NCBI GenBank assembly: GCA_036703985.1
Contig: DATNQN010000104.1
Location: 1-64,000 of the forward strand
Reading direction: 5' to 3'
DNA from: Leptolyngbyaceae cyanobacterium
GTDB lineage: Bacteria; Cyanobacteriota; Cyanobacteriia; Cyanobacteriales; Aerosakkonemataceae
Length of the DNA stretch: 64,000 bases
Shown here: piece after piece, positions 1 through 16,210 of the stretch
How positions within the stretch are numbered: position 1 is the first letter of the stretch
Layout of the letters: each line of letters begins with the position of its first letter
Notes under the pieces: model-generated
What the model was told of the DNA's origin: nothing
Databases searched by the model: none
The model's input: the letters and a program-made list of their open reading frames with translations, nothing else
Program-made: the position numbers and the translations under genes

Positions 1-40
1 CCTCCCCATCCCCCCATCTATATAAATTTTCTTTGGCGAC

Positions 41-82
41 AATGAATTAGCCCTGCCTTTTTAAGGGGGGCAGGGGGGTTAG
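41..82. repeat. Inverted repeat before the GNAT gene
   Basis: CCCTGCC at 51-57 pairs with GGCAGGG at 69-75, giving a hairpin just upstream of the first gene. The segment AATGAATTAGCCCTGCC resembles the core of the MITE-like family seen at 4859, 37543 and 41274, so this is probably a diverged or truncated member. It could also be the terminator of a gene to the left of the window. Confidence 0.4.
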
Positions 83-112
83 ATTTTCCGAATTTTTCAA
101 GCAATTTTATCC

Positions 113-922
113 ATGAATTCAATCAACTTTACCCAAAATACAGACGCCCAAATCGGGCAAGCGATCGAATCTAATATGCTTGGACATATGTCCTATTTTG
201 CCAACCATTTACCTGGTATGGAAGTACTCGATCGACCAGATATGCTAATAATTAATTCCCGTTTACCATCAGATACATTTAACTACGTGTGTCGGTTAAA
301 TTTCACCGAATCAGAAATCGATCTTTCCCTTAAATTTGCCCTTAATTACTTTCAACAACAACAGTTACCAGCCAGCTGGTGGATCGGTGTAAATTCCAAA
401 CTAACTAACCTCACCGAACATTTGGCAAAACACGGTTTAAAACAAGTAGAAGAAGCAGCAGGTATGGCAATGAATTTAAATCAACTTCCTGCTAAATCTT
501 CCCTACCCGCAGGATTAGAAATTAAGCCAGTAACCAATATTAATGAAATCGAACATTATGCTAATATAATCGCTACTTGTTGGAATCCATCCGATCCAAA
601 TGTCATCAAATTTTATCAACAAGCTGCTGCCATTGCTTTTCGTCCTGAAAGTCCCTTTCGTTTCTATCTCGGTTACTTAGAAAATCAACCTGTAGCTACG
701 GGTGAGTTATGTTTAAGTGGGGGAGTGGCAGGCATTTACGGCTTAGTGACCTTGGAAAAATATAGAAAAATGGGAATTGGTACGGCAATGACTTTTACCG
801 TTCTTTCTCATGCCAAAAATTTAGGTTATCAAACGGCGATTTTGCAAGCATCGGAAGATGGCAAAAGCATTTACTCCCGTTTGGGTTTTAGACAATTCTC
901 TAATTTCCTGATTTATCAATGA
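113..922 (+). CDS. GNAT family N-acetyltransferase
   Basis: A 269-residue protein whose C-terminal half (about 130-269) is a GNAT fold. The acetyl-CoA pyrophosphate-binding loop is visible as RKMGIGTAM (about residues 218-226), followed by the helix and the closing YSRLGFR motif typical of motif B. The N-terminal about 110 residues form an extra domain, as in two-domain GNATs that acetylate small molecules or protein N-termini; the substrate cannot be told from sequence. It is convergent with menH, and the two 3' ends overlap by 7 bp, so they are not co-transcribed. Family call is firm, substrate unknown. Confidence 0.85.
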   Translation: MNSINFTQNTDAQIGQAIESNMLGHMSYFANHLPGMEVLDRPDMLIINSRLPSDTFNYVCRLNFTESEIDLSLKFALNYFQQQQLPASWWIGVNSKLTNLTEHLAKHGLKQVEEAAGMAMNLNQLPAKSSLPAGLEIKPVTNINEIEHYANIIATCWNPSDPNVIKFYQQAAAIAFRPESPFRFYLGYLENQPVATGELCLSGGVAGIYGLVTLEKYRKMGIGTAMTFTVLSHAKNLGYQTAILQASEDGKSIYSRLGFRQFSNFLIYQ

Positions 923-1788
923 GAAATCTGCCAAAAATCACCTATTTGTTGCCAAAGTAAATCCGGTGATTCGATTAAGGGTGCGTGAGTTGTTTCTAAG
1001 GTTTTTAACTGAGCATTAGGCATGATTTCAACCAACTGGGAAGCGATTTCTAAATATTTGCGATCGCGCAACCCAGCGATAACTAATGCAGGTGTTTGAA
1101 TATCCGATAAAAGATGCCAAACAGAAGGCATGACTCCACTGCCAAAATGCTTTAAACTACAAGCTAATCCAGCAGGCTGAATGGGTAATCGTCTGGCAAT
1201 TTCCCGATCGAGAAAATCTTTACCTTTCTCGACTATTCCTTGGAAAAGAGGTTGCGTTAACCAAAAATTTAGAAAATCTAAAGGGTCGGAGTTGATAATT
1301 TTTTCCGCTAGTTTCTCATCGGCTTGCCTCCTAGCTTGACGAACAGATTCTGACTCGATCCCGGCAGTTGTAGAAACTAAAATTAGGGAATGGAGACGGG
1401 AGGAATTTTTGACAGCAAATTGCAATGCCAAACGCCCACCCATTGAATAACCAAATAAATGAAACTTGCCTACTCCTAAAAAATCAAGCCATTGTTCTAA
1501 TAAAAGTACTTGTCCGTTAGTTGGGAAAACGTCGCCATCTTCCCAAACGCTAGTTTTGCCATGTCCGGGTAAATCCGGCATCAAACAACGGTATTTATTG
1601 TTGATGAAATCGGAAATAGTGAAAAAATCGCGACTGCTGCCCGTGAAGCCATGCAAAAATACGATCGCATCCCCTGTTTCCAACCCAGAATCAACGTAAA
1701 AAAAGTCTCCCACAAGACTTTTGTAACAGCAATTTTTCACCAAATTAAAAGACTGATAAAGTTCGGTTGTGCTGTAAAAACCAGTCAT
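916..1788 (-). CDS. menH: Alpha/beta hydrolase, probable MenH (SHCHC synthase)
   Basis: A 290-residue alpha/beta hydrolase. The oxyanion region is FLHGFTGSS (44-52), the nucleophile elbow GYSMGG places Ser115, and Asp242 (GLRDRKY) and His268 (THAPLIE) complete a triad. This pattern and length match MenH, which removes pyruvate from SEPHCHC to give 2-succinyl-6-hydroxy-2,4-cyclohexadiene-1-carboxylate in phylloquinone/menaquinone synthesis; in cyanobacteria phylloquinone serves photosystem I. The first codons overlap the end of the upstream esterase gene by 44 bp, implying co-transcription or a slightly later true start. A general esterase is the alternative because alpha/beta hydrolases are hard to separate by motif alone. 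Confidence 0.75.
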   Translation of the reverse strand: MTGFYSTTELYQSFNLVKNCCYKSLVGDFFYVDSGLETGDAIVFLHGFTGSSRDFFTISDFINNKYRCLMPDLPGHGKTSVWEDGDVFPTNGQVLLLEQWLDFLGVGKFHLFGYSMGGRLALQFAVKNSSRLHSLILVSTTAGIESESVRQARRQADEKLAEKIINSDPLDFLNFWLTQPLFQGIVEKGKDFLDREIARRLPIQPAGLACSLKHFGSGVMPSVWHLLSDIQTPALVIAGLRDRKYLEIASQLVEIMPNAQLKTLETTHAPLIESPDLLWQQIGDFWQISH

Positions 1789-2389
1789 ATAATCCTGGAT
1801 TAGCGTAAGTTTCCGTCCAAGAATCGTGACCTGTTTCCGGGTAAACTGTAAACTTTACATTCCCGCCACAATCTTTCAGCGCCGTTACCATTTTTTCCGA
1901 TTCGCTAAAAGGAACGGCGGTATCGATCGCACCGTGAAACACCCAAATCGGAAGATCTTTTAGTTTGTAAGCATCCATTGGGTTTCCACGACCGCACACA
2001 GGCGCTATGGCAGCAAAACGATCGGGTTGTGCGGCAGCTAAACGCCAAGTGCCATAACCGCCCATGCTTAAACCAGTCAGATAAATTCGCTCTAAATTGA
2101 CATTGTAAGCTGCGATCGCTTCATCAAGTAAAGTATTCAAAAGCGGGACAGACCAATATTGACCGCGCGGACATTGGGGAGAAACCACAATAAACGGAAA
2201 TTCCGGTTTATTTTCGACAATTTTGGCAACTCCGTGCCTTTTTACATCATTTACATTAGAACCCCGTTCGCCAGAACCGTGCAGAAACAAAATAAGCGGC
2301 CATTTTCCCCTTGTGTCATATTGCTTGGGTAAAAATAGCAAGTAATCGTAGCTTTCTGTACGAGTAATCGGTATTTGCGTACTCAACAT
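1745..2389 (-). CDS. Alpha/beta hydrolase of the phospholipase/carboxylesterase or prolyl-oligopeptidase type
   Basis: A 214-residue single-domain serine hydrolase without a signal peptide. ILFLHGSGERG (33-43) is the oxyanion segment, GLSMGGYG puts the nucleophile at Ser108, Asp156 (FHGAIDTAVP) is the acid and His188 (ETGHDSW) the base. The layout matches the PF02230/dienelactone-hydrolase-like group of cytosolic esterases. Its 3' end overlaps the start of menH on the same strand, so the two are probably one transcript. Substrate unknown. Confidence 0.8.
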   Translation of the reverse strand: MLSTQIPITRTESYDYLLFLPKQYDTRGKWPLILFLHGSGERGSNVNDVKRHGVAKIVENKPEFPFIVVSPQCPRGQYWSVPLLNTLLDEAIAAYNVNLERIYLTGLSMGGYGTWRLAAAQPDRFAAIAPVCGRGNPMDAYKLKDLPIWVFHGAIDTAVPFSESEKMVTALKDCGGNVKFTVYPETGHDSWTETYANPGLYDWFLQHNRTLSVF

Positions 2390-2580
2390 AAACTTTTTTG
2401 CTCGTCAGTTTTCAACGCGATAGGTTATAAATAGTGTTTTATCACCAAATTCGTGCTAAAACACCTACAATTTGGCATAATTAGGCTACTGCGCTCGGCT
2501 AATTACTGCTTATTTAATTATTAGACCTCTCCCAAAAAGAATGTAGAGATCTTCTTCTTTTTAAAAGACTGAGTTACATA

Positions 2581-2611
2581 GAAACCCGGTTTCTTGAAGA
2601 AACCGGGTTTC
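2581..2611. repeat. AGAAACCCGGTTTCT-family inverted pair
   Basis: GAAACCCGGTTTCT (2581-2594), a TGA spacer, then AGAAACCGGGTTTC (2598-2611) form a perfect 14-bp hairpin. The same palindrome recurs at 10271-10303, 26581-26595, 62271-62285 and about 62324-62338, so it is a dispersed repeat rather than a terminator particular to this gene; no T run follows. Confidence 0.8.
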
Positions 2612-2667
2612 TCGGCTGATTGAAAAAGTCGATTTCTACAAATACAACCTGCTTAGTTTCTAATATT
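2611..2667. repeat. Direct duplicate of the miaB 3' end (copy 1)
   Basis: The first 31 bases, beginning CTCGGCTGATTGAAAAAGTC, are identical to 2751-2781. The rest is a diverged match to the last codons of miaB up to 2809. Read on the minus strand, copy 1 still resembles the MiaB C-terminus (ILETKQVV against ILEAKQAV) but has lost the stop codon. The copies lie 140 bp apart. Confidence 0.8.
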
Positions 2668-2670
2668 CCT

Positions 2671-2715
2671 CGTTCCCAGGTTCAACCTGGGAACGAAGAA
2701 TGGAGGCTCTGCCTC
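2671..2715. repeat. REP-like double hairpin (copy R1)
   Basis: The arms CGTTCCCAGGTT and AACCTGGGAACG with a one-base centre (2671-2695) are followed by GAGGC-TCT-GCCTC (2703-2715). The same two-hairpin unit flanks the RAYT pseudogene at 45139-45183 and, inverted, 45742-45788, and occurs alone at 62394-62440. It sits between the duplicated miaB ends. Confidence 0.75.
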
Positions 2716-2775
2716 TTGGTACAAGATTTGAGTCAATTTATCTATTGACCCTCGGCTGATTGAAAAAGTCGATTT

Positions 2776-4140
2776 CTACAAAACTACAGCCTGCTTAGCT
2801 TCTAATATTTTCCCAGTCAAGCTAAAGGCGCGAACTTCCGAGATTTTCACTTTCACCAATTGACCTTTTAGTTCATCGATATTGCCGTGGAAAAACGTCA
2901 AGCGGTTACCGCGCGTCCTACCCATTACTTGATGGGGGTCTTTAGGATTTTCAGCTTCTACCAATACTTCTTCTGGGCGATCGAAATAGCGCTGCGATCG
3001 CTCGGCTGCTTTAATAGAAACTAAATGATTGAGGCGTTGCAATCGATCGGCTTTCACCTCTTCCGGAAGTTGATTTTCCCACAAAGCAGCAGGCGTTCCC
3101 GGACGAGGAGAATAAGCCGCCGTGTTCAACAAATCGAAACCGATATCTTCCACCAATTTGAGCGTATTTTCAAATTGTTGTTCCGTTTCTCCGGGAAAAC
3201 CCACAATAGCATCCGCACTAATCGAAGCATCCGGCATATATTCCCGAATCTTATCAATAATCCGGCGATATTTTTCCTGCGTGTAGCCTCGCGCCATAGC
3301 CTTGAGTACTTCGTTATCCCCAGATTGAAAAGGAATGTGGAAGTGTTCGCAGACTTTAGGTAATTCTGCACAAGCTTTAATTAGCCGTTCTGTAAAATAA
3401 CGGGGGTGACTGGTAGCGAAACGAATGCGATCAATTCCCGGCACGTCATGCACGTAGTAAAGTAAATCGGTCAAAGTGTGCTGATGGCGACCTTCCGGAG
3501 TTACCCCAGGCAAATCTCGACCGTAAGCATCAATATTTTGACCCAGTAAAGTTACTTCCTTATAACCCAAACGTCCCAACTCAACCATTTCAGCACGAAT
3601 CGCTTCGGGAGTGCGAGACTGTTCCACACCCCGCACGTTCGGAACTACGCAATAAGTACAGCGTTCGTTGCAACCGTAAATCACGTTCACCCAAGCAGTC
3701 ACGGTACTATCCCGTCGCGGCTTGGTAATATCTTCCATAATATGAACCGGTTCTGTCGCCACAACCTGATTGCCCTGAAATACTTGTTCCAGCAAGTCTT
3801 CCAGGCGATTAGCGTGTTGTGGCCCCATCACTAAATCTAATTCTGGCACCCGCCGCAGCAGCGCTTCACCTTCTTGTTGGGCAACGCAACCAGCTACGAT
3901 CAAAGTCAAATCAGCTTCTTCCTGTTTCCGCTTGGCTTGTCTACCCAAGTACGAATAAACTTTTTGTTCGGCGTTATCCCGAATCGTGCAAGTATTATAT
4001 AGAATCAGGTTTGCATCGTTAGGGTCTTCTGACCACTCAAAACCCATATCTTCCAGGATGCCAGCCATGCGTTCGGAGTCGGCTTTATTCATCTGGCAGC
4101 CGAAGGTAGTGATGTGATAGCGGCGACGGGAGATGGTCAT
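2776..4140 (-). CDS. miaB: tRNA-2-methylthio-N6-dimethylallyladenosine synthase MiaB
   Basis: A 454-residue radical-SAM methylthiotransferase. The N-terminal UPF0004 domain carries the three cysteines of the auxiliary 4Fe-4S cluster (Cys15, Cys51, Cys85). The radical-SAM motif CNERCTYC supplies Cys157, Cys161 and Cys164, and a C-terminal TRAM domain runs from about 380 ([10 protein letters not shown] to TGKILEA). It converts i6A37 to ms2i6A37 in tRNAs reading UNN codons. Length and cysteine spacing match MiaB rather than RimO or MtaB. The gene appears monocistronic. The 3' end has been partially duplicated downstream (2611-2667). Confidence 0.95.
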
Positions 4141-4438
4141 GGTCAGTTACAAGCAAAAATGGTCAACAATTTTTAAACTCTTATAAATTATATATTTTTG
4201 CCCTCTATCTTGGCGGGTTTCGTCTTAGGCGCGATTTTGGCAATTGATTTTTTGCCACTTAAATTGGGAATTGCGAATTTTTCATGTGAAATAAGTAGGA
4301 AGGTGCTTTCTAAACAGAACTATCTAAGCTTTACCCCTCTTCCCTTGCAGCCTGCTAGCCGCTCTCAACGATCGATTTTCCGACCCACCTATTTAGATAT
4401 TGGTAATTTTTGGAAAACTGTCTATTTTTTTGACATCT

Positions 4439-4876
4439 ATGTTATTGATTCTCAATCAATCCAAACTATTTACGCGCTTCCTAACTTTTGGTGCTTTTTT
4501 AGTCATCCCGTCATCCCCAGCCTACCCACAAAACCAATCTTTTTTCACCTCATCCATACCAGCACAAGCACCTACTACCAGAGAGGATAGAGTTCTCAAA
4601 GCTATCTGGCAACTTCCGGAAGTCCAAAGAAAAGCAAGAGAAATTCAGAGACTATCAAATGGTAGAGTACGAGTCAAGTTAATGGTGGAAAGCGAACCAA
4701 CCGCTAATGAACCATACTATACAATTCGCGTTTTTGAGGATCGTCAGGATAGGATTGCTACTTTGTATTGGTTCCGAGTAGCTAGTCCCAGCGGTGTAAT
4801 TACCGTTCAAAATGAAGTTACAGGAGATTACATTTCTCTGGAACAGTGGCGGAAAAGATATAGCGATCCTAAATGA
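4439..4876 (+). CDS. Small exported protein of unknown function
   Basis: The ATG at 4439 gives 145 residues; the frame is open from a TTG at 4400, but the ATG puts a hydrophobic signal-like segment (about residues 9-28, ending SSPAYPQ) at the N-terminus. The mature part is about 115 residues, mixed alpha/beta (LPEVQRKAREIQRLSNGRV, then beta-rich YYTIRVFED), with no motif I recognise. The last codons YSDPK-stop are formed by the terminal repeat of a MITE-like element (4859-4963), so the native C-terminus may have been different. No obvious operon partner. Confidence 0.6.
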   Translation: MLLILNQSKLFTRFLTFGAFLVIPSSPAYPQNQSFFTSSIPAQAPTTREDRVLKAIWQLPEVQRKAREIQRLSNGRVRVKLMVESEPTANEPYYTIRVFEDRQDRIATLYWFRVASPSGVITVQNEVTGDYISLEQWRKRYSDPK

Positions 4877-4963
4877 ATTGCGAACAATCTTAACCCCTCC
4901 CAACCCTCCCCTTACCAAGGGGAGGGCTAGGGTGGGGTTGATTATTTAAATAGGATCGCTATA
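4859..4963. mobile_element. MITE-like element, copy 1 (105 bp)
   Basis: A perfect 13-bp terminal inverted repeat, TATAGCGATCCTA (4859-4871) and TAGGATCGCTATA (4951-4963), encloses a core rich in CCCTCCC/GGGAGGG that folds on itself (CCCTCCCCTTACC-AAGGGGAGGG). There is no coding capacity. Related copies are at 37543-37722 (same 13-bp ends) and 41274-41354 (reverse orientation, shortened). The left end overlaps the last codons of the preceding gene and provides its stop. Confidence 0.75.
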
Positions 4964-5304
4964 ATTCTCAATATTTTTTTTAGATTACTAAAAACTAAAA
5001 CAGCTTCACCCGTTTGGGTGATACAACTCGATAAATAAAGTACATAGACGCCGATTTTGATTTCGTCCGAGCGATGGGAAATTCAACTTTTTCCGTAAAT
5101 CGGCCTCTACCTATTTGTATCAATTATTAAGTTAACCCATATTACTATATGTACCTTTTTGAGGCATCACCTGAATTGGGTATTTGTTGACTGATAACGA
5201 TTAAATTAACGAGTGGTAAAATTTGAATTTTTTTTTATTTTATCCTGACGGTTTAACTATATAGGCGAATGACGCAGTAGAACCTCTAAATAAGGACATC
5301 TACA
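4964..5304. other. Upstream region of the RGSGR-repeat gene
   Basis: There are 341 bp without a gene, AT-rich, with a T9 tract at about 5229-5237. AAGGAC (about 5291-5296) lies 8 bases before the ATG at 5305 and is a plausible ribosome binding site. The long leader could hold regulatory sites for the downstream gene, but I see no clear NtcA site (GTA-N8-TAC) or HetR palindrome in it. Confidence 0.4.
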
Positions 5305-5856
5305 ATGCGCTCCTACAGTTCCCTACTCTTATCAGGCTTGTTACTCACCGGTATTGCATCTGGCCTTAAAATAGTTGAATATAAAAATCATGACAAATTA
5401 GGCAAGTTTGATTCTGAAAAACTTCATTTAGTAGTTCAAAAATGGGAAAATTCAAACAAAGAAAGTCGTGGCAGTGGAAGAGTTGCACCTGCTAGTCCCC
5501 TTCCCGATGCAGCTGAAGAAAATTTGTTAGCGCAGTCAGAAAGCGACAAAAAAGAAGCTCGTGGCAGCGGCAGATTTGCACCCGTTCATCCCCTTCCCGA
5601 TTCTGCTGAAGAAAATTTGTTAAGCCAGGTAGAGAGCGACAAAAAAGAAAGTCGTGGCAGTGGAAGGTTTTTACCTGCCAATCCTATTTCTGATGGGGTT
5701 GAAGAAAATTTATTAGCTGATGTACAGAAAGAAAACAAAGAGAGTCGGGGTAGCGGACGATTGGCTCCCGATTTTCCCCAGTTTGATTCTTCTCAAGAAA
5801 GTTTAGTAGCGGAGAGTAAAACCCGCAGAAGAAAAGTTGTGATTGTATATAGTTAA
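5305..5856 (+). CDS. Exported protein with four tandem RGSGR pentapeptides (PatX-like)
   Basis: A 183-residue protein with an N-terminal hydrophobic segment (about residues 6-21) that should send it to or through the cytoplasmic membrane. After a 30-residue linker come four units of exactly 31 residues, each containing RGSGR (55-59, 86-90, 117-121, 148-152). The unit consensus is roughly KESRGSGRxAPxxPLPDxxE followed by ENLLAQxES. The C-terminus is basic (KTRRRK). RGSGR is the active pentapeptide of PatS and HetN, which bind the master regulator HetR in Anabaena. PatX is the related exported RG(S/T)GR protein of filamentous cyanobacteria, including species without heterocysts. I infer that this is a PatX-type peptide precursor with four potential peptides; processing and a HetR partner are not shown in this window. 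AAGGAC precedes the ATG by 8 bases. Confidence 0.75.
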   Translation: MRSYSSLLLSGLLLTGIASGLKIVEYKNHDKLGKFDSEKLHLVVQKWENSNKESRGSGRVAPASPLPDAAEENLLAQSESDKKEARGSGRFAPVHPLPDSAEENLLSQVESDKKESRGSGRFLPANPISDGVEENLLADVQKENKESRGSGRLAPDFPQFDSSQESLVAESKTRRRKVVIVYS

Positions 5857-5952
5857 TTAAATTGCCAAGCCGGAATCATGCTGAAAACAGCTTTTGAATA
5901 ATTCATAGTTAGCTTTAACTAGTGGCTGTGTAGGTTGGTTGATGTTAATTCT

Positions 5953-7398
5953 TTATCTCTTCATTAGTTGTGGTTTCCAAGTACCATGAAAACTCATAGG
6001 AACTGGGCTAGGTAAAGCTAGTTTGCAGACAGGTTCTTCATCAAGTCTTTCGCTATCAAAAACCCAAACTTCGCTGCTGTTGGCGTTACCATCAAACACG
6101 ACAGTTAGTATCCAACTCCGCTCTGGAGTAATGGTATCTGCAACGTATATTGGTTCGGTAGGATAACGATTTTCTCCTAAATCTGCTTCGGTAAGGGTGG
6201 CTGTTCGATCGTCAAAACGCGCGATCGCACCATATATTTCTTTAGTGGTATCAATTCCTTGTCTGTGCAAAGATAAGTAAGTGGAGTGGGAAGCTTTCCC
6301 GACTCGCGCTGGTGGTACGATCGGGAATTCACAATCTCTATCTAATAATTCCTGAGTTGCCTTTACTTTACCAGTTTTGGGATCGAGATTGACTTGCCAC
6401 AGAGTTGATTTGGCTGGAGTTTGGGTTTGTCCGGTAGCGACTTCTTTGAGGCGCTGGTTAGTTTGAAAGTCGCGATAGTGAATGAAGTCAACGCTTACCG
6501 AATCGCGATCGTTTACATAACCGTTACTAAAATGCCATTGATACCAAGGTTCTGTTTCGCCGCGACTAAGTAAAGATAGAGTTTCTCGATCGAAAATTAA
6601 GATTTGAGTTCCTAGTTCGGGTTTCCATTCCATCGCATTGCTGAAACTAGATAAACCGATGACTGTCGGTAATAAATTTATTCGCACTGGCGGTATAAAA
6701 AATATTAAGTATTGTCCCGCCATGACAAAATCATGAACTAGGGGAATTCCATCGATGGGGAACGATGATTTTTGGATGATTTTACCCGTGCGATCGCTTT
6801 TAAAGAGATTCAGCTTGGCATGAATTCCTATACTGATGCCAAAGTTAAAAATTTCTCCCGTTTCTGGGTCGCATTTGGGATGAGCAGAATAAGCTATTCC
6901 TTTATCTAATCCTTCTAAATTATCTAATCCCCGAGTTTCTAATGTCTGAAGGTCGAGAGAATGGGGATTGTCACCTTCCCAAAGCGCTAGTAATTTATCG
7001 GGTAACGCCAGTACCGATGTGTTAGCAGCATTTTTGAGCGGTCTTAACCATTGATTCCAAAATGGCCCTGGCGGGGTCATTCCGTAGTTGCCATAAAGTA
7101 ATTTTCCAGCTTTTGATTCTGCTAAATAACCGACTGTTTGTACGTAACGATAAACGCCTGTTGCACCTTCATCGGTAAAATGGACGGCAAGAATTGCACC
7201 ATCTCCGTCAAACCAATGTCCTACTCTCATCCCACCGCGTTCTAAACGACCCGGGCCATTGCGATAGAGACTACCGCGTAAACCAGCTGGTATTTTGCCA
7301 CTTACTATTGGTAAAGGAGTGAGGGGAAATTCTCCAGCAGGTTGGGAAAGCGCTTTCCCCCAAGTTGGTTGGGTAGTTGATTTTGCGATCGCAGTCAT
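5953..7398 (-). CDS. Carotenoid oxygenase (apocarotenoid-15,15'-oxygenase type)
   Basis: A 481-residue member of the RPE65/NCED family of non-haem iron beta-propellers. The four iron-binding histidines can be assigned to His173 (YSAHPKCD), His222 (LVHDFVM), His289 (QWHFSNG) and His471 near the C-terminus (MSFHGTW). Length and motif spacing agree with the Synechocystis ACO/Diox1 enzyme, which cleaves apo-carotenals to retinal. No signal peptide, so it acts in the cytosol or at the membrane surface. The ATG at 7398 follows an AT-rich leader. It is a lone gene, so the substrate (apocarotenal or full-length carotenoid) cannot be settled from context. Confidence 0.9.
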   Translation of the reverse strand: MTAIAKSTTQPTWGKALSQPAGEFPLTPLPIVSGKIPAGLRGSLYRNGPGRLERGGMRVGHWFDGDGAILAVHFTDEGATGVYRYVQTVGYLAESKAGKLLYGNYGMTPPGPFWNQWLRPLKNAANTSVLALPDKLLALWEGDNPHSLDLQTLETRGLDNLEGLDKGIAYSAHPKCDPETGEIFNFGISIGIHAKLNLFKSDRTGKIIQKSSFPIDGIPLVHDFVMAGQYLIFFIPPVRINLLPTVIGLSSFSNAMEWKPELGTQILIFDRETLSLLSRGETEPWYQWHFSNGYVNDRDSVSVDFIHYRDFQTNQRLKEVATGQTQTPAKSTLWQVNLDPKTGKVKATQELLDRDCEFPIVPPARVGKASHSTYLSLHRQGIDTTKEIYGAIARFDDRTATLTEADLGENRYPTEPIYVADTITPERSWILTVVFDGNANSSEVWVFDSERLDEEPVCKLALPSPVPMSFHGTWKPQLMKR

Positions 7399-7421
7399 TC
7401 GATTTTAGATTTTGGATTTTA

Positions 7422-7580
7422 GATTTTGGATTGGCTGGGCAACGATCGGACGGAGCTTGAAATAAGCGAGAATTTCTATAGATGAGGGTATAGGGAGATA
7501 GAAAGACACAGACAGAGGTATAAAATAAGTTAAGTTTTATCCTTCAGACTTCATACTTCAGACTTCATCCTTCAGACTTC
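7422..7580. repeat. Low-complexity short-period repeats
   Basis: Short degenerate units (GATTTTAGATTTTGGATT near 7400-7430; CTTCAGACTTCATACTTCAG around 7540-7580) fill the gap between the carotenoid oxygenase and the TPR gene. Similar reiterated sequence appears at 12440-12590. No gene. Confidence 0.6.
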
Positions 7581-8831
7581 CTACTGTACGCCGACATTTC
7601 GCAATACGCGATCGATTTCTTCGGCTTTCTCGGTATTACCTTGCGCTCGATATAAATCGCTAGCTTGTTTAAAGGTAGCAATCGCTTCTTCTACTTTTAC
7701 TTGAGAAGCTAAAGCAACTGCTAAATTCTGATGAGCTTCTGGATATTTGGGATTAATGCGAATTGCTTCTTCCCACATAGAAATAGCTTGAGGTAAATTT
7801 TTTTGCTTATATAAAACTACGCCTAAGTTATTATAAGCTTCTGGATTTTGGGGGTTGAGTTTAATGGCTTTTCTTAATTCTGCGATCGCTTCATCGAATT
7901 GACCCCGATCGGCTAAATTACTTCCTAAGGTAGTATGAGCGGTGGCATAGTTAGGATTGATGCGAATTGCTTCTCTGTAAGCGGCAATTGCTTCTGATGT
8001 GTTGCCTTGATTTCGCAAAGCTACTCCCAAATTATAGTTAGCTTCTGCATAATTGGGATTGAGGCGAATGGCTTGTTGATAAGCTTCGATGGCTTCATTG
8101 AGTTGACCTCGTGCTTGCAAGGCTACTCCCAAGTTAAAATGAGCTTCTGGTAAGTTCGGTTGAAAGCGGATCGCTTCTTTAGTTTGTTCGATCGCTTCTT
8201 GCCATTTGCCTTGTTGCTGGAGAGTTAGTCCCAAGTTGGCATGAGCTTCTGCGTAGTTAGTGTTCAACTCAATGGCTTTGCGAAAAGCGGTTTCTGCTTC
8301 TGGGAGATTTCCTTGTTTGTAATGAGTAATTCCTTGATAAAAATAAGCGATCGCGTTTTGCTTATGAGATATGGCGTCTTGTATCGCCGCGATCGCCGCT
8401 TTGGGATCTCCCGATTCTTGTTCTACTAATGCTAGTCCCAGTTTTGCTTCCTGTAGTCTGGGATTTAGTTCGATCGCGTTTTTGTGAAATTCACGAGCAG
8501 TTGCCAAGTCTCCCAAACGGCGGTAAGCTTCTCCTAAATTGGTGTGAGCCTCCGCAAATTGGGGATTTTGGCTGATTTGCAGGCGATAACATTCAATTTT
8601 TTCTTGCAATTGTGCCTTTTCCCGATCGTTAAGCGTCGATTGATTAATCGAATGCGCCTGTTTTTGATCGATCAAGAATTCTCCACACTCTTCTATCACC
8701 ACGATCGGGGTCATTCTAGAGGATGGAGATGAACGACTAAAGTAGATCGCGGTAGCAATGCCAGCACCTAAGATACCGACGACACCGGCAGCAATACCAA
8801 TTCGGGTAGATACTTTAGGGATTGGTAACAT
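7581..8831 (-). CDS. Membrane-anchored TPR protein
   Basis: A 416-residue protein with one N-terminal transmembrane or uncleaved signal segment (about 10-31, GIAAGVVGILGAGIATAIYF), then about eight to nine 34-residue tetratricopeptide repeats from about residue 85 to 405. Typical TPR cores are obvious, for example YAEAHANLGLTLQQQGKWQE and PEAHFNLGVALQARGQLNEA. It should be a periplasm- or cytoplasm-facing protein-protein scaffold; partners are unknown. Not in an evident operon. Confidence 0.85.
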   Translation of the reverse strand: MLPIPKVSTRIGIAAGVVGILGAGIATAIYFSRSSPSSRMTPIVVIEECGEFLIDQKQAHSINQSTLNDREKAQLQEKIECYRLQISQNPQFAEAHTNLGEAYRRLGDLATAREFHKNAIELNPRLQEAKLGLALVEQESGDPKAAIAAIQDAISHKQNAIAYFYQGITHYKQGNLPEAETAFRKAIELNTNYAEAHANLGLTLQQQGKWQEAIEQTKEAIRFQPNLPEAHFNLGVALQARGQLNEAIEAYQQAIRLNPNYAEANYNLGVALRNQGNTSEAIAAYREAIRINPNYATAHTTLGSNLADRGQFDEAIAELRKAIKLNPQNPEAYNNLGVVLYKQKNLPQAISMWEEAIRINPKYPEAHQNLAVALASQVKVEEAIATFKQASDLYRAQGNTEKAEEIDRVLRNVGVQ

Positions 8832-9347
8832 ATCTGCGATCGCGGTTATGTATGATTGTCTTTTTAAAGTCTACCTACAAATATCTCATTGCGGTCAAAA
8901 AGTAAAGGTCATCCTTTAGCTAAATTCTCGACAATCTATTTCATTTTGGGCTAAGACAGTGTAGACGTTGCTGAAATACCCAATTTAGGAAAATTCGTTT
9001 TTCTATCAAAATCTTAGCTTTTTTACATTTATTTCATTAGCTATGACCATTTTTTGAATTCAAAATTCAAAATTCAAAAGAAATAAAATTTTTTAATTGA
9101 ATAATTCTGGGTACAAGCCACCACTGAATTTTATTCAGTGGTGCAACAATTCAGTGGGGGCTTGAAACCCACCACTGATTGTAATTTTGAATTAATAATT
9201 TTGAATTTTGAATTGTTTTGACAATACCACCCTCATTTTTATAATGAAATTTTGCCACATATTCCATAAGCTTGATTGCTATTTTCTCTTGTTTCGCTTC
9301 GGAAGTTCCTGCTTGCAAAGAAAGTAACGGCTGGCGTCAAGTAAAAT
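8832..9347. other. Gap with paired hairpins
   Basis: There are 516 bp without a gene. CACCACTGAAT (9119-9129), TTT, ATTCAGTGGTG (9133-9143) form an 11-bp hairpin. A second overlapping-family hairpin follows (ACAATTCAGTGGG about 9146-9158 with CCCACCACTGATTGT about 9168-9182). Around 9057-9080 and 9185-9215 there are AATTCAAAATTCAAAA-type low-complexity stretches. Their function is unclear; this could be an old MITE. Confidence 0.5.
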
Positions 9348-9509
9348 TTAAGTATCCTCCCTAGTTGATGTTTGGATTAAAGAAGAAACCACCCAGATAA
9401 CTGATGAGATCAACAAAAACATCATCAACAAAGATAAAGCGGAAAAAGGAGATACGAGCGTCATTACTAACATAGCGAATAACACGATCGTCAAAATTGA
9501 TTTATTCAT
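9348..9509 (-). CDS. Tiny two-helix membrane protein (53 aa)
   Basis: A minus-strand frame from the ATG at 9509 to a TAA at 9348 encodes 53 residues. Two hydrophobic stretches (about residues 4-20 and 24-45) are separated by a Pro/Ser turn (SPFSALS), and there is a short polar tail (QTSTREDT). AAAGG lies 4-5 bases before the ATG. Codon third positions are A/T-rich like the neighbouring genes. I do not recognise the family; membrane topology is the only prediction. It may be a regulatory micro-protein or a chance frame. Confidence 0.45.
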   Translation of the reverse strand: MNKSILTIVLFAMLVMTLVSPFSALSLLMMFLLISSVIWVVSSLIQTSTREDT

Positions 9510-9629
9510 AACCTTTTCTTTCGGTGATTTTTACTCTTTCAGCCTATCTACTCAATCTCGAATAAACCTCTAACTTTGGCCACATTTGCGCTACACTGAA
9601 AAAAGTCGAATTTGCGATCGCACCCCGTC

Positions 9630-10094
9630 ATGCTCTCCACCCCTCAATCGACAAATCCTGCGCTTATCCCAGGTAGCTTGCGGAAAGTTCACCACATCGC
9701 CATCAACGTCAAAAATATGCAAGCATCTCGCCACTTTTACGGCAACATCTTGGGATTGCACGAACTAACAGGGGATGAAGTACCGAAAACCTTAGTAGAA
9801 TTAGTCGCGGCGGGAAAAGTTGCCAACTTTGTCACCCCCGATGGTACGGTAATCGATTTATTTTGGGAACCGCAACTTTCACCCCCAGATCCCGATCCGA
9901 CTCATCAATTTACTCGCGCCAATCATCTAGCATTTGATATCGATCCCCAGTTATTTGATACCGCAGTTGATGTTTTGAAATATCATCAAGTACGGATAGA
10001 TCATGGCCCAGTTTCACGTCCGACGGGAAGAGGTGTTTATTTTTACGATCCCGATGGCTTTTTGATTGAAATTCGTTGCGATGCGATCGGTTAA
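9630..10094 (+). CDS. VOC (glyoxalase/bleomycin-resistance) family protein
   Basis: The ATG at 9630 is preferred to an in-frame TTG at 9612 and gives 154 residues. The fold is recognisable from VHHIAINVKNM (first strand with a metal-ligand His), FYGNILGL, the second module NHLAFDID and the closing YFYDPDGFLIEIR, where the final Glu is the usual metal ligand. This is a single-chain two-module VOC enzyme, cytosolic, using a divalent metal; the substrate is not predictable. It stands alone. Confidence 0.85.
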   Translation: MLSTPQSTNPALIPGSLRKVHHIAINVKNMQASRHFYGNILGLHELTGDEVPKTLVELVAAGKVANFVTPDGTVIDLFWEPQLSPPDPDPTHQFTRANHLAFDIDPQLFDTAVDVLKYHQVRIDHGPVSRPTGRGVYFYDPDGFLIEIRCDAIG

Positions 10095-10270
10095 AGTTGA
10101 ATAAGAGTGAGAATGTTTTATTAGATTAGAGGTTAAACTTTGCCGTTCGTATTTATTTATTCTATTGTGGGAGTTTCTGATGTTTCTAAGGTTTAATTTC
10201 TACCTAACAAAATGCGCTCACCTACGCTAAACTCTATTCAAGTCAAAGGGTGGTCGTCTATTCCCCGCAA

Positions 10271-10303
10271 AGAAACCCGGTTTCTCCAAGAAACCCGGTT
10301 TCT
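10271..10303. repeat. Two tandem AGAAACCCGGTTTCT palindromes
   Basis: Copies at 10271-10285 and 10289-10303 each read AGAAACCCGGTTTCT, separated by CCA. They are members of the dispersed palindrome family also found at 2581, 26581, 62271 and 62324. They lie just beyond the stop codon of the aspartic-protease-like gene on the opposite strand. Confidence 0.8.
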
Positions 10304-10322
10304 GAAGCCAGCGCGATCGCAC

Positions 10323-10688
10323 CTACCCCAACGTCAATACCCCCGCCGGAAAATCTGATACCAACCTTTTCATTTGCAGCCAATATACGCCCAACAGAAT
10401 ATCTGGCAATTCATCACCACCCAAAACTGAAACTGCAAACTCTCCCCCATCTAAAAAAACATTTCCCTGATACAAATTAAACAATGCTTCGCCGCGTGCA
10501 GTCTCCATATTTCGTTGTTGATTCTGAAGAAACCAACCCAAACTTTCAGCGTCTTGGTTATCAATTGCTAACCAACCAGTGAAACCCGTATCCAAAAGTG
10601 CTTTGACTGTAATAACATCACCATCAGCAGCAATTAAACCGATTTCAAAAATTAGCTCACCCTTATTATTAAACTCGCCTGAAATCAT
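10323..10688 (-). CDS. Clan AA (retropepsin-like) aspartic protease
   Basis: A 121-residue protein with the flap/active-site signature ALLDTGFTGWLAI; catalytic Asp33-Thr34-Gly35. The second hydrophobic-hydrophobic-Gly signature is ILLGVYWLQ (about 97-105). These small cyanobacterial proteins form dimeric pepsin-like active sites. It overlaps the upstream 105-residue gene by 4 bp (ATGA), which implies translational coupling and a two-gene module of the kind seen in toxin-antitoxin-like pairs. Substrate unknown; the partner is the obvious candidate. Confidence 0.75.
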   Translation of the reverse strand: MISGEFNNKGELIFEIGLIAADGDVITVKALLDTGFTGWLAIDNQDAESLGWFLQNQQRNMETARGEALFNLYQGNVFLDGGEFAVSVLGGDELPDILLGVYWLQMKRLVSDFPAGVLTLG

Positions 10689-11002
10689 ATTTTGCCGCAG
10701 GCTCCAGTTTCATTGAGACGCATGATGAGGCTCTTTTTATCAGGATATTTCTCACAAATTTTTTGGATAGCGGCTATTTCATTTGCATCAATTACGTAAT
10801 CGCCACTTTCAGGCTCAATGATAATAAACCAATCATAATGATCCTTAATTAAATTTGGTTTCACCCTCTCAAAAATTTCTTGACAACGCCTCGCAAACTC
10901 TTCCCCTTCAGCCTGACGACGAGCTTTTTCTTCTGGAGATAATTGGCGTTCTGGAAATACTCTTCCTCGTCGGTGATTCTGATTATCAGATAACAGAGTC
11001 AT
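10685..11002 (-). CDS. Small partner protein of the aspartic protease
   Basis: 105 residues, cytosolic. The N-terminal 25 residues are polar and rich in Arg/Gln (RRGRVFPERQLSPEEKARRQ); the middle is helical (EEFARRCQEIFERVKPNLI) and the C-terminal half has a conserved-looking WFIIIEPESGDYVIDANEIA segment. I recognise it only as the type of protein often found upstream of clan AA protease genes in cyanobacteria. It shares an ATGA overlap with the protease gene, so they are one operon. It could be the protease's substrate, inhibitor or antitoxin; none is demonstrated. Confidence 0.6.
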   Translation of the reverse strand: MTLLSDNQNHRRGRVFPERQLSPEEKARRQAEGEEFARRCQEIFERVKPNLIKDHYDWFIIIEPESGDYVIDANEIAAIQKICEKYPDKKSLIMRLNETGACGKI

Positions 11003-11320
11003 TGGATATCCTATTGATTAAAAAAGTTGTTGATTTTAATTGTAAATCAATTTTCTGGCCGGGTAATCTATGGCACAGTTCTACGATCGCGATCGCTCTT
11101 CATCTTTCTTCCAAAAACTCGGTTCTTTCGGGTTTATGCTGTGAAATATTCAAACTTACATCTTGCCCCATTCTCAACAAGACCTGAGTAGCACTGACGC
11201 CAGTGAATTGGTATAGAGCGCTCACGCCACTACACCAAAAACTATACCAGAACCCAACTTTTAAGTTGGATTCCCTTGGTGTCTAATTCACTGAAAGTCT
11301 TATATGTCAATTATTTCAAC
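11003..11320. other. Gap between the protease operon and tRNA-Ser
   Basis: 318 bp without a convincing gene. It contains the divergent promoter region of the protease pair and short inverted repeats (GGTATAG about 11210 with CTATACC about 11243; CCAACTT/AAGTTGG about 11254-11270). Nothing else recognised. Confidence 0.4.
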
Positions 11321-11406
11321 GGAGAGGGAGGGATTCGAACCCTCGTTGAAGTTGCCCCCAAACAGCATTTCCAGTGCTGCGCCTTCAACCACTCGGCCAC
11401 CTCTCC
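11321..11406 (-). tRNA. tRNA-Ser (anticodon GGA)
   Basis: An 86-nt class II tRNA read on the minus strand. The 7-bp acceptor stem is GGAGAGG/CCTCTCC, the D-arm GCCGAGTGGTTGAAGGC, the anticodon stem CAGCA/TGCTG with loop CTGGAAA giving anticodon GGA (Ser, UCC/UCU codons). There is a long variable arm, and the T-arm is GAGGGTTCGAATCCCTC. CCA is not encoded. The ferredoxin gene starts divergently about 79 bp away. Confidence 0.97.
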
Positions 11407-11484
11407 AAAACTGTGCTTTTACATACAAATTATAGTATTTTTCGCACAGACTTTTATTATATATATGTTGCTTCGATTTTGCAA

Positions 11485-11853
11485 ATGGTTTCCACATATA
11501 AAATTCGGATTCACCATCGCCAGAGAGACACCTACCATACTATTGAGGTGCCAGAAGATAGATATATCCTGCATTGTGGCGAAAATCAAGGAGTCGATTT
11601 GCCTTTCTCGTGCCGGAATGGTGCTTGTACTACCTGTGCCGTGCGGGTGATTTCCGGGGAAATTTATCAACCAGAGGCAATGGGGCTTTCTCCGGAACTG
11701 CGCCAGCGGGGTTACGCCTTATTATGCGTGAGTTACCCGCGTTCTGACTTAGAGGTAGAGACTCAGGATGAAGACGAAGTTTACGAACTTCAGTTTGGTC
11801 GGTATTTTGGTAAAGGGAAAGTAAGGCCGGGATTGCCGCTTGATGAAGACTGA
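11485..11853 (+). CDS. Plant-type [2Fe-2S] ferredoxin with C-terminal extension
   Basis: The ATG at 11485 is chosen because the longer frame would run back into the tRNA gene; it gives 122 residues. Cluster ligands Cys43, Cys48, Cys51 and Cys81 have the classic C-x4-C-x2-C-x29-C spacing. About 25 residues follow the usual end of a photosynthetic ferredoxin (ELQFGRYFGKGKVRPG), as in the FdC-type ferredoxins of cyanobacteria and plants. It should carry electrons in the cytosol, perhaps to a specialised partner rather than FNR. It overlaps the next gene by 11 bp. Confidence 0.88.
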   Translation: MVSTYKIRIHHRQRDTYHTIEVPEDRYILHCGENQGVDLPFSCRNGACTTCAVRVISGEIYQPEAMGLSPELRQRGYALLCVSYPRSDLEVETQDEDEVYELQFGRYFGKGKVRPGLPLDED

Positions 11854-12394
11854 GATCGATCGAAAGATAAAAAGATTAGTTCGTGGCTTTTTCCTAGTGG
11901 CTTTTTCCTTCGTACTTTTCTTGACAGGTTGCCAGTCTAAGAGCACTTTGCAGGGAGTAGAGGTAAAAGTAGCACAGGTAGTCAGCGGACAAGCTTTGGA
12001 GATCATCGATCCCCAAAACCAATCTGGCTTGATTTCGCGGGTGCGGCTGATTGGGGTGGAAGCACCGGATTTGCAGCAGCGTCCTTGGGGAGAAGCAGCC
12101 AAAGAGAGATTGCAAGAAATGATTGGCGAAAAACCTGTTTTACTAGAGTCCGATATCGAAGTGAAGGATCAGTACGAACGCCAGCTTGCCTATGTATGGC
12201 AAGATGGAGTGTTACTGAACGAACGAATATTAGCAGAGGGATATGGCCTTTTTCTATCGCGATCGCTAAATCACAAGTACGATAAACGTCTAGAACGCGC
12301 TCAAGAATACGCTAGAGTAATGGGTCTGGGTATTTGGAATCCAGAAAAACCCATGCGCTTAACTCCCACAGAATTTCGCAATCAATATAGATGA
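11843..12394 (+). CDS. Staphylococcal-nuclease-like lipoprotein
   Basis: The ATG at 11843 gives 183 residues. The N-terminus is basic then hydrophobic and ends in the lipobox LTGC (Cys30), so it is a lipoprotein anchored outside the cytoplasmic membrane. Residues about 40-170 are an SNase fold: VRLIGVEAPD corresponds to the Arg35 region of staphylococcal nuclease and QYERQLAYVW to the Arg87 region. The calcium-binding DGDT-type strand is replaced by SGQALEI, so metal-dependent cleavage may be impaired. It overlaps the ferredoxin gene by 11 bp, suggesting co-translation. Confidence 0.75.
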   Translation: MKTEIDRKIKRLVRGFFLVAFSFVLFLTGCQSKSTLQGVEVKVAQVVSGQALEIIDPQNQSGLISRVRLIGVEAPDLQQRPWGEAAKERLQEMIGEKPVLLESDIEVKDQYERQLAYVWQDGVLLNERILAEGYGLFLSRSLNHKYDKRLERAQEYARVMGLGIWNPEKPMRLTPTEFRNQYR

Positions 12395-12613
12395 TGGGAA
12401 GGTAGGAGGATGGGGAGATAGGGGGATGGGGAGATGGGGAGATGAAATAATTGTTTGACTCCTGAATTCTGACTCCTAAATTCCGAATTCTGAGTTCTAA
12501 GTTCTGAGTTCCGAATTCTGAATTCTGACTCCTAAATTCTGAATTCTGAATTCTGACTTCTTACTTCAGCCTTTATCCTTCAGCCTTCCCAATGCCCAAT
12601 TCCCAAATAAAAA
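12395..12613. repeat. Degenerate CTGAATTCTGACTCC-type reiterated sequence
   Basis: Between 12440 and 12590 there are about a dozen short units such as CTGAATTCTGACTCCTAAA and AATTCTGAATTCTGACTTC, preceded by GGGGAGAT reiterations (12405-12445). This is a common cyanobacterial intergenic low-complexity pattern; no gene. Confidence 0.65.
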
Positions 12614-13456
12614 ATGAGTAACCATACCCCAGAACAATTGCAAATATTCCTAGATATTGCCAGCGAAGCGGCGACTGCGGCTGGTGCGGTTTTACTATCT
12701 TATTTAGGCAAATTAGAATCAGTGGAAGAAAAGGGGCGTCCGGGAGATTTATTAACCGCAGCAGACAAAGCGGCGGAAGCTACCATTCTGGAAATTTTAG
12801 GTCGTCACTTTCCCCAGCACGGGATTTTGGCAGAAGAATCAGGTCAACTGGGAGAAAATAACAGCGAGTACCTTTGGGCGATCGATCCCTTAGATGGTAC
12901 AACTAACTTTGCTCACCAATATCCTTTTTTTGCCACCTCCATCGGACTTTTCATCGAAGGAGTTCCCCAAGTAGGAGTAGTTTTCGATCCTTTTCATAAC
13001 GAACTATATCGCGCCGCCAAAGGATTGGGTGCCACGCGCAACCGTCGCCCCATCAGAGTTTCCCCCACATCCGAACTAAACAAATGTTTGCTGGTTACTG
13101 GCTTTGCTTACGATCGCCGCGAAACATCAGATAATAATTATGCCGAATTTTGTCACCTCACCCATTTGACCCAAGGCGTGCGGCGCAGTGGTGCAGCATC
13201 CATAGATTTAGCTCATGTAGCTTGTGGCCGTCTTGATGGATACTGGGAAAGAGGTCTTTCTCCTTGGGATATGACAGCGGGAATAGTGTTAGTAGAAGAA
13301 GCAGGTGGCAAGGTAACTGCCTATGATGGTAGTCCCTTACAGATTAGTTCGGGACGGATTTTAGCTACTAATGGTTATATTCATCACACCTTAAGTAGCA
13401 AACTTATGCAGGTTCCTCCATTATCAGCATGGAGTAAAGCCGTAAATTCCCCCTAG
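12614..13456 (+). CDS. Inositol-1-monophosphatase family protein
   Basis: 280 residues. The metal-binding motifs of the IMPase/FBPase superfamily are visible: AEES (73-76), DPLDGTT (91-97) and the C-terminal SPWDMTAGIVLVEEAGG. It hydrolyses inositol-1-phosphate or similar phosphate monoesters with Mg2+; SuhB-like and histidinol-phosphatase (HisN) activities occur in the same family. Since hisZ lies two genes downstream, a histidinol-phosphatase role is conceivable, but the motifs do not decide it. Cytosolic. Confidence 0.88.
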   Translation: MSNHTPEQLQIFLDIASEAATAAGAVLLSYLGKLESVEEKGRPGDLLTAADKAAEATILEILGRHFPQHGILAEESGQLGENNSEYLWAIDPLDGTTNFAHQYPFFATSIGLFIEGVPQVGVVFDPFHNELYRAAKGLGATRNRRPIRVSPTSELNKCLLVTGFAYDRRETSDNNYAEFCHLTHLTQGVRRSGAASIDLAHVACGRLDGYWERGLSPWDMTAGIVLVEEAGGKVTAYDGSPLQISSGRILATNGYIHHTLSSKLMQVPPLSAWSKAVNSP

Positions 13457-13518
13457 CGCATATATAGATGTGGCGAAGTACACTAGATCTAATCGCTTCA
13501 GAAGACGGAAACTAAATT

Positions 13519-14490
13519 ATGGCTCTTAATATAGAACAAGGACTATTCAAGTTTGATTTCACAGACCACCATGCCGTTTTGGGAGTAGCGTTGGATGCGA
13601 CGGCAAATGACGTTCGCAAAAGGTATCTCAAAATTTCTCGTCGTCTTCATCCAGACAGTTGTCGTACCGAATCGGAAGAATTAAGACAACAAGCTAGCCA
13701 GTTGTTTGCTAAACTGGTGAACCCAGCTTACGAACAACTGTTTGCCGACCAAACTCGCGCCGAACATAATGCTCTTTTAAGTCGCATTAGTAAGCGTTTG
13801 GTTCAGGAAAAAGATAAGGTGCAAATCCAAAGCGAACTAGCTAAAAAATTATCGAAAGCTGGCAATATAGAACAGGAGTATCAAACAGCGCTGCAAAGTT
13901 TAGCTGAAAAACAATACGAATCGATCGATCGAGTGTTGGACAATATAGCTCAAATCAGCGAGTTAAATTTAGTTTACTTACAGCGGAAAGCAGGTCAGGG
14001 CGCTACCTCCAGACCTGCTCAACCAGCAGCCCAACCAGCACCTACCGCCGGGGGAGCAGGTATTTCAAGCACGGCTAAACCTGGTGCGGGAATGATGCCT
14101 TCTGTTGATAAAAAAGTAGAAAAACCCGAAAATTCAGCCGCTGAAGCTTACTGTCGTCGAGCAGAAGAATATCTGGAAAAAAATGTCATTCCAAAAGCCA
14201 TTTTGGAATTGAAAGATGCTTTAAAAATGGAGCCGAATAGTAGTCGCTGTCATGGCTTATTAGCAATAGCTTATTTAAGGCAAGACCAGATGACAATGGC
14301 AAAAGTTCATATGAACCAAGCTTTTAAGTTAAATCCACAAGAGCCAAAAGCTTTAGAAGTGAAAAAATTAATGGAAAAAATCGCAGATAAAGCGGCGGCG
14401 GCTGCTAAAAAGAAACAAGCTGAAAAATCCGGTGGTGGTTTATTTGGCTTATTTGGTAAAAAGACAGTCAACAACGAAAAGAAAAAGTAA
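13519..14490 (+). CDS. J-domain protein with C-terminal TPRs
   Basis: 323 residues. Residues about 15-85 are a J domain (HHAVLGVALDATANDVRKRY) with the HPD tripeptide at 44-46 needed to stimulate DnaK ATPase. A Pro/Ala/Gly-rich linker follows (about 158-195), then two TPR-like repeats (about 205-290) and a Lys/Gly-rich tail (KKKQAEKSGGGLFGLFGKK). The zinc and substrate domains of DnaJ are absent, so it is a type III J-protein, probably directing an Hsp70 to specific clients. Its last base overlaps a long upstream frame of hisZ, but the preferred hisZ start leaves about 80 bp. Confidence 0.85.
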   Translation: MALNIEQGLFKFDFTDHHAVLGVALDATANDVRKRYLKISRRLHPDSCRTESEELRQQASQLFAKLVNPAYEQLFADQTRAEHNALLSRISKRLVQEKDKVQIQSELAKKLSKAGNIEQEYQTALQSLAEKQYESIDRVLDNIAQISELNLVYLQRKAGQGATSRPAQPAAQPAPTAGGAGISSTAKPGAGMMPSVDKKVEKPENSAAEAYCRRAEEYLEKNVIPKAILELKDALKMEPNSSRCHGLLAIAYLRQDQMTMAKVHMNQAFKLNPQEPKALEVKKLMEKIADKAAAAAKKKQAEKSGGGLFGLFGKKTVNNEKKK

Positions 14491-15909: not shown

Positions 15910-16137
15910 GTGCCCCATACAATTGTTACTGAAACTTGCGAAGGCGTTGCCGACTGCGTTGATGCTTGTCCGGTTGCTTGCATTCACGAAGGCCCTGGCA
16001 AAAATGTCAAAGGTACTGATTGGTACTGGATTGATTTTGCCACCTGCATCGACTGCGGCATTTGTCTCCAGGTATGTCCTGTAGAAGGTGCTATCGTCCC
16101 CGAAGAACGTCCAGATTTGCAGCAAACACCTCAGTAG
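15910..16137 (+). CDS. Bacterial-type ferredoxin with two Fe-S clusters
   Basis: A 75-residue protein from a GTG start (15910). Cysteines follow C10-x5-C16-x3-C20-P with Cys24, then CIDCGICLQVCP (Cys46, 49, 52, 56). This matches 7Fe/8Fe ferredoxins with one 3Fe-4S or 4Fe-4S and one 4Fe-4S cluster. It is a soluble low-potential electron carrier, close to the PsaC-like ferredoxins conserved in cyanobacteria. It is monocistronic, with direct-repeat DNA after its stop. Confidence 0.9.
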   Translation: MPHTIVTETCEGVADCVDACPVACIHEGPGKNVKGTDWYWIDFATCIDCGICLQVCPVEGAIVPEERPDLQQTPQ

Positions 16138-16210
16138 TCATTGGTTATTTGTCATTAGTCATTGGTCATTGGTCATTTGTAACAACACTGATTGATGACC
16201 AATGACTAAA
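16134..16210. repeat. GTCATTGGT short-unit repeat with inverted partner
   Basis: Several TCATTGGTCATT-like units (16138-16180) are followed by GATGACCAATGACT (about 16194-16207), the inverted version, so the region can form a hairpin after the ferredoxin stop. It may act as a terminator; the repeated unit is a common cyanobacterial intergenic pattern. Confidence 0.5.

Follow-up and report, generated by a model that had tools for sequence, protein, structure and literature searches.

The window, a stretch of 64,000 nucleotides (64 kb) from an assembly of 7.68 Mb (151 contigs, completeness 100), carries an ORF of 183 codons whose product contains the pentapeptide RGSGR four times. The copies start at residues 55, 86, 117, and 148 and are thus separated by exactly 31/31/31 residues, as stated in the original prediction, which had been made from the letters of the DNA alone. 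A chance origin of the four copies was considered and ruled out: no other RG[ST]GR string occurs in any of the six reading frames of the window, so chance is no reasonable explanation. The features of the locus are as follows.

5243–5248, + strand: DIF1-like promoter box (TCCTGA), located at −62 relative to the start codon of the multi-copy gene
5305–5856, + strand: multi-copy PatX-type precursor gene, ATG start, 183 aa, match to NCBIfam NF047413
5314–5364, + strand: hydrophobic N-terminal export segment, approximately residues 4–20 (limits set by eye), based on hydropathy, a predicted helix, and invariant residues
5454–5762, + strand: tandem array with a 93-nt period, approximately 3.3 copies, found with Tandem Repeats Finder independently of the motif reading
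5467–5481, + strand: RGSGR copy 1, residues 55–59
5560–5574, + strand: RGSGR copy 2, residues 86–90
5653–5667, + strand: RGSGR copy 3, residues 117–121
5746–5760, + strand: RGSGR copy 4, residues 148–152
5953–7398, − strand: RPE65-type carotenoid oxygenase (PF03055, 421.9 bits), syntenic neighbor, convergent with the PatX gene
7581–8831, − strand: TPR protein, syntenic neighbor (name judged by eye from the sequence)

Repeats of other kinds also occur in the window. Tandem Repeats Finder reported an array of a CTGAATT-like 7-base repeat at 12456–12567; there are short heptad arrays at 7401–7432, 7542–7585, and 16131–16177, and 102-nt tandem repeats at 56327–56550 and 43217–43437, which appear coding-like by eye from their consensus units.

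The window protein matches the curated NCBIfam equivalog model NF047413 (heterocyst_PatX) with 48.7 bits (E = 9.4e-13, cut-off 30), in agreement with the proposed assignment to the PatX family, and the alignment begins at residue 1. At E ≤ 0.001, this is the only match to the PatX model in the whole genome; a Pfam search of the ORF gave no match above cut-off. PatX usually has a single RG(S/T)GR motif, although the NCBIfam model does not require this; the window gene departs from the usual form in carrying four motifs, the last at residues 148–152 of 183. It is a true PatX family member with several motif copies. The predicted N-terminal hydrophobic segment is also present, with a mean Kyte–Doolittle hydropathy of 2.27 over residues 7–17, and export itself is inferred from it.

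Multi-copy PatX genes lie near RPE65-type and TPR genes in four relatives from the same family (G032, G055, G091, and G139). These two neighbors mark the orthologous locus and are not part of the system. Identity to the window's proteins amounts to 74–77% for the RPE65-type oxygenase and 69–70% for the TPR protein, compared with 31–35% (tblastn) for PatX. The G055 protein is identical to that of Argonema antarcticum A004/B2 (Oscillatoriaceae). The four orthologues carry 3, 3, 3, and 4 intact copies, respectively, at spacings of 26–32 residues; in all counts, only RG[ST]GR was taken as an intact copy. An alignment of the orthologues shows conservation in the export segment and in RGSGR; M1, R2, Y4, S6, L9, S10, G11, L12, and L13 are invariant in five family members. 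Spacers, unit length, and copy number vary between the four relatives, and RGSGR and the DIF1-like promoter are kept. Loss of RGSGR with retention of the spacer, which would have refuted the prediction, is the reverse of what is seen at this locus.

The residues around the motif fared differently. KES before, and AP and PLPD after, each RGSGR had been proposed as possible processing signals. They do occur in most units of the window gene, but they are not kept in the orthologues, which carry DDDDS, FTTN, and the like instead, and the idea of conserved processing signals was rejected. The only recurring feature of the spacers across orthologues is their acidic character.

A PatX-model profile search of 388 genomes of the window's order, followed by reading of the ORFs, was used to assess how widespread multi-copy forms are. 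The model matched in 178 of the 388 genomes, and multi-copy forms, with 2 to 11 RGSGR copies, were verified in at least 25 genomes from seven families, so copy number does vary among other cyanobacteria, a point that the original prediction had left to be checked. The number 25 is a lower bound, since only part of the matches, and only part of the candidates in each genome, entered the count. The verified genomes, with intact copies in brackets and the source genome of the window denoted G000, are as follows.

Family f1: G000 (4), G032, G055, and G091 (3 each), G139 (4)
Family f21: G047 (2), G020, G069, G087, and G136 (3 each), G104 (5), G121 and G150 (6 each)
Family f9: G008 (11), G037, G060, and G192 (3 each)
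Family f12: G115 (4)
Family f15: G173 (5), G214 and G246 (4 each)
Family f29: G122 (4), G105 (2)
Family f5: G076 and G093 (2 each)

In f33, the family with the best-scoring matches, all 34 PatX genes read were single-copy; 30 of these are top-scoring loci, which tilts the selection toward canonical forms. A second set of 386 genomes, drawn from across the phylum and overlapping the first, gave 16 matches, and one multi-copy form was found outside the order. This genome (G500, locus L216), which belongs to another order, has one ORF with RGSGR, RGTGR, RGSGR, and RGSGR, and so contains both known active forms; it stands outside the HetR tally and the PatX-model scoring. The window gene is one of several independent-looking multi-copy expansions. 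The 11-copy protein of G008 is the same as that in Oscillatoriaceae cyanobacterium M33_DOE_052 (loci L062 and L149), and its eleven RGSGR copies follow an alternating 11/12 spacing after the first copy.

Such expansions could be selectively neutral, having arisen by tandem duplication in a protein that is unfolded and evolves quickly; one RGSGR would then suffice, and copy number would drift. Several relatives contain decayed copies (FGNGR in Argonema; RTGR and GSGR in G139; RDSGR and NSGSGR in G246), which indicates that not every copy is under strong constraint. Flank residues of the units are 57% identical within a gene versus 21% between genes (window, Argonema, and G139), so duplication or homogenization must be frequent, and the arrays have been re-amplified or homogenized separately. 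No multi-copy form turned up in genera g3 and g4, which account for the other half (5 of 10) of the family's genomes, and drift would also accommodate this. However, all four window copies are intact. In pairwise comparisons between the four window units, the motif codons comprise 12 identical, 18 silently different, and 0 changing pairs (n = 30), compared with 52 identical, 18 silent, and 86 changing pairs in the flanks (n = 156). All 18 motif differences are thus silent, whereas 86 of 104 flank differences are not, and the silent changes imply that the window copies are not fresh duplicates. These comparisons carry two caveats: the codon pairs lack independence, and the core was itself selected on the motif. 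A corresponding test over all 24 multi-copy genes was set aside as biased because the copies were chosen by motif match; the codon evidence thus rests on the window gene only, the units of which are delimited by the tandem array. Neutral drift is further opposed by the presence of multi-copy forms in seven families and once outside the order, with up to 11 intact copies, and by the fact that one of the four copies in G500 is the known active RGTGR, even if only RG[ST]GR was counted as intact. Taken together, we regard purely neutral duplication as unlikely.

The upstream region contains a box that resembles an element known from patX genes. DIF1, TCCGGA, is described as a consensus element of patX that drives patS, patX, and hetR in Anabaena in a HetZ-dependent manner (PMC7377430). 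The window box, TCCTGA, is one base off TCCGGA, and the orthologue in G139 has TCCGGA at the aligned place; the approximately 90 nt before the start codon show 85% mean column identity between the window and three orthologues. Among single-copy genes, 59 of 81 have a TCC[GT]GA box at −70 to −55, and among multi-copy genes, 13 of 24 do; in 16-bp control windows, the mean count was 0.7 (at most 4) for the former and 0.1 (at most 2) for the latter. The genes in these counts are related and not independent. The box is absent from this position in 11 of the 24 multi-copy genes; besides the 13 that have it, six multi-copy genes show, by eye, TCCAGA at a similar position. The 300 nt upstream contain the exact TCCGGA in 4 of 23 multi-copy genes versus 43 of 80 single-copy genes (shuffle means of 1.1 and 3.2). 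The NtcA box, GTA-N8-TAC, was not found within 2.9 kb upstream of the window gene, and the window as a whole contains 14 such boxes versus 7.8 expected.

At loci L074, L075, L087, and L153, inverted repeats with differing arm sequences were noticed in the approximately 40 nt that immediately precede the start codon. An inverted repeat at the presumed transcription start was rejected as a general patX feature, since arms of at least six bases occur in 7 of 38 distinct patX genes versus 4 in control windows.

A profile search found HetR_C once in the genome, on contig C70. The corresponding HetR has 299 aa and scores 581.1 bits with the HetR model, and HetR chains of known structure align with it end to end (phmmer; E = 2.2e-165 for 4hri_B, from Anabaena). 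Residue 223 is arginine, and R223 of HetR is reported to be required for PatS binding (PMC7476756). Absence of hetR would have refuted the prediction; the gene is present at full length, with R223 kept. Next to it lies another gene with the motif.

7145–7381 of G000 contig C70, − strand: single-copy PatX-like ORF, 78 aa (locus L119), on the same strand as hetR and 916 nt upstream of it

This ORF ends in CHRGSGRRCAAH and scores 23.8 bits with NF047413, below the cut-off of 30, so that the curated model misses it. An RGSGR ORF upstream of hetR on the same strand is found in all 10 genomes examined from the window's family, although it is only 31 aa long from the first ATG in three of them (genus g3). 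The window gene is thus a second, multi-copy PatX at another locus. A degenerate DNA pattern for RGSGR gave 156 sites in the genome, 100 of which were itemized; besides the window gene, 51 sites were read (30 loci, 5 more, 15 with by-eye possible RG[ST]GR codons, and the hetR-linked one). Judged by eye, the hetR-linked ORF was the only exported RGSGR candidate among these, and the other 50 were short frames or out of frame. As the remaining sites were not read, a third exported RGSGR gene is not excluded. TIGR01287, the model for nifH, gave no match above cut-off in the genome; its best match (219.5 bits vs 394.35) is a 296-aa frame taken for ChlL, a related chlorophyll enzyme. Heterocysts are therefore unlikely, a conclusion that rests on one gene.

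We also considered that the peptides might act mainly elsewhere than on the producer's own HetR, through another receptor or on the HetR of neighboring filaments of other species. HetR is present in 24 of the 25 multi-copy genomes of the order (5/5 in f1 and 19/20 in the others), which speaks against this idea, and the exception is G008, the genome with the most copies, for which the HetR_C search gave no match (assembly 99% complete). In four genomes, the multi-copy gene is itself linked to hetR, on the same strand; the distance from its end to the first hetR ATG is 262, 313, 311, and 310 nt in G122, G173, G214, and G246, respectively. Moreover, the kept motif is exactly the one known to bind HetR. 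The site just before hetR matches the arrangement reported for patX in Leptolyngbya BL0902 (PMC11298460). In the same organism, effects of PatX on transcription are described as basically independent of HetR (PMC11298460), and the window genome already has a hetR-linked single-copy PatX-like ORF; both are compatible with another target. G008 and the BL0902 report stand against a simple HetR story, but a main target other than the producer's HetR seems to us quite improbable. Loci at which the hetR-linked patX is itself multi-copy are L172 (G246), L176 and L179 (f15), and L169 (f29).

Based on these observations, we consider it likely that the window gene encodes an exported, unfolded multi-copy PatX precursor giving rise to several HetR-inhibiting peptides in a filament without detected nifH, with everything from cleavage onward being inferred. 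The gene would be transcribed from a DIF1-type promoter as a second, multi-copy PatX, and the precursor would be exported by its N-terminal signal and stay largely unfolded. Nostoc PatX is reported to need export and to be processed by the peptidase PatP (PMC12756182), and by homology a similar periplasmic activity could cut around each RGSGR, so that a single molecule would yield as many as four HetR-inhibiting peptides rather than just one. Such peptides may then move along the filament and restrain HetR; HRGTGR is reported to bind HetR at 88 nM and to block DNA binding or remove HetR from DNA (PMC12756182). The acidic spacers would be free to vary, with copy number as the evolving variable. 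Since no NifH scored above cut-off in the genome, heterocysts are probably not what is controlled here; the trait may be another patterned decision, such as the placing of necridia, the filament breaking points. No expression, peptide, or protease data stand behind this precursor reading of the window gene, which counts against it; export, cleavage, peptide release, HetR inhibition, a dose effect, and a role in necridia all remain inferences.

A folded structural repeat protein without processing was the remaining outcome that would have refuted the prediction, and nothing points to one. The AlphaFold model of the window protein has an N-terminal helix (residues 4–52; block of residues 1–20 at pLDDT 74–78) and is otherwise without structure (mean pLDDT 51.4; 113 of 183 residues below 50), which is weak evidence on disorder because the alignment held only four sequences. 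It is highly improbable that the protein works in its uncut form, be it in a multivalent extracellular or structural role or by binding HetR at several sites: spacing is regular inside some multi-copy genes (31, 32, 35, and 21 residues) and spacers are net negative in 24/24 distinct multi-copy versus 54/82 single-copy genes, but intact copies lie anywhere from 11 to 63 residues apart among relatives (the 63 in G246 spanning decayed units), spacers look unrelated between families, disorder is predicted, HetR sits on DNA in the cytoplasm whereas PatX is exported, and PatX without its signal is reported not to interact with HetR in a two-hybrid test (PMC12756182). As each RGSGR brings two positive charges, the acidic spacers balance these partly or wholly. 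The reading as a multi-copy signal-peptide precursor thus stands, with hetR present, RGSGR kept at the orthologous locus, and no folded repeat in evidence, and with cleavage, release, and cell-to-cell signaling as inferences.

HetR and PatX have been described as an ancient patterning pair, older than heterocysts, and Khudyakov and co-workers conjecture that the HetR–PatX/PatS mechanism first served nonrandom filament breakage via necridia (PMC7761841). The role of the pair in filaments without heterocysts is open, and multi-copy precursors bear on that question: retention of the motif amid changing spacers suggests that, in such organisms, the peptide is what selection acts on. Repeating RGSGR, which elsewhere turns off the cell-fate regulator HetR, inside one precursor may be a way to raise signal dose. 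More generally, it is conceivable, at somewhat less than an even chance in our estimate, that filamentous cyanobacteria adjust how strong the HetR-inhibitor signal is, or how far it reaches, through the number of RGSGR copies per PatX precursor, a solution reached repeatedly (eight families to date, 2–11 copies); its use where PatS and HetN have not been added as extra genes is an inference, neither having been surveyed. Copy number would offer reaction–diffusion models a natural, countable dose variable, and with several units per precursor, peptidomics would have more than one opportunity to detect the mature peptide and locate its cleavage sites.

Multi-copy PatX is a variant of a known family, reportedly defined by Elhai and Khudyakov in 2018. 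No description of multi-copy PatX or RGSGR repeats was found in open-access titles, the first parts of abstracts, and text passages; these did not cover the founding PatX paper, and whether there is an earlier description is unsettled.

At 183 aa, the window protein is far longer than Nostoc PatX, reported to have 56 aa (PMC12756182). It resembles PatX of Nostoc/Anabaena PCC 7120 in its hydrophobic N terminus, its RG(S/T)GR motif, a DIF1-like box (here one base off TCCGGA) near the start, and the presence of HetR in the genome, and differs in having four motifs in acidic tandem units instead of one, in not lying beside hetR, and in belonging to a genome without NifH above cut-off. PatS and HetN of Anabaena, the latter an enzyme-like protein, contain the same pentapeptide, RGSGR, but in single copy. 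For both, the cytoplasm is the probable site of synthesis and cleavage (PMC12756182). Our inference is that genes are added in Anabaena, and copies within one gene in this lineage. Cyanobactin precursors, which are multi-core RiPPs of cyanobacteria, likewise hold more than one active core each. Microviridin is described as a further such case in cyanobacteria (PMC5934393). Like the window gene, these precursors hold several cores, but they yield secondary metabolites and come with modifying enzymes, none of which was noticed by eye among the ORFs of window positions 1–14000 (no dedicated search was made). The yeast alpha-factor precursor is exported and contains several copies of one signal peptide with spacers between them. 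It has the same layout as the window protein but is unrelated to it, and processing sites are known only for the yeast protein; if filamentous cyanobacteria do tune the signal by copy number, multi-copy PatX would represent the bacterial equivalent of this yeast pheromone precursor.
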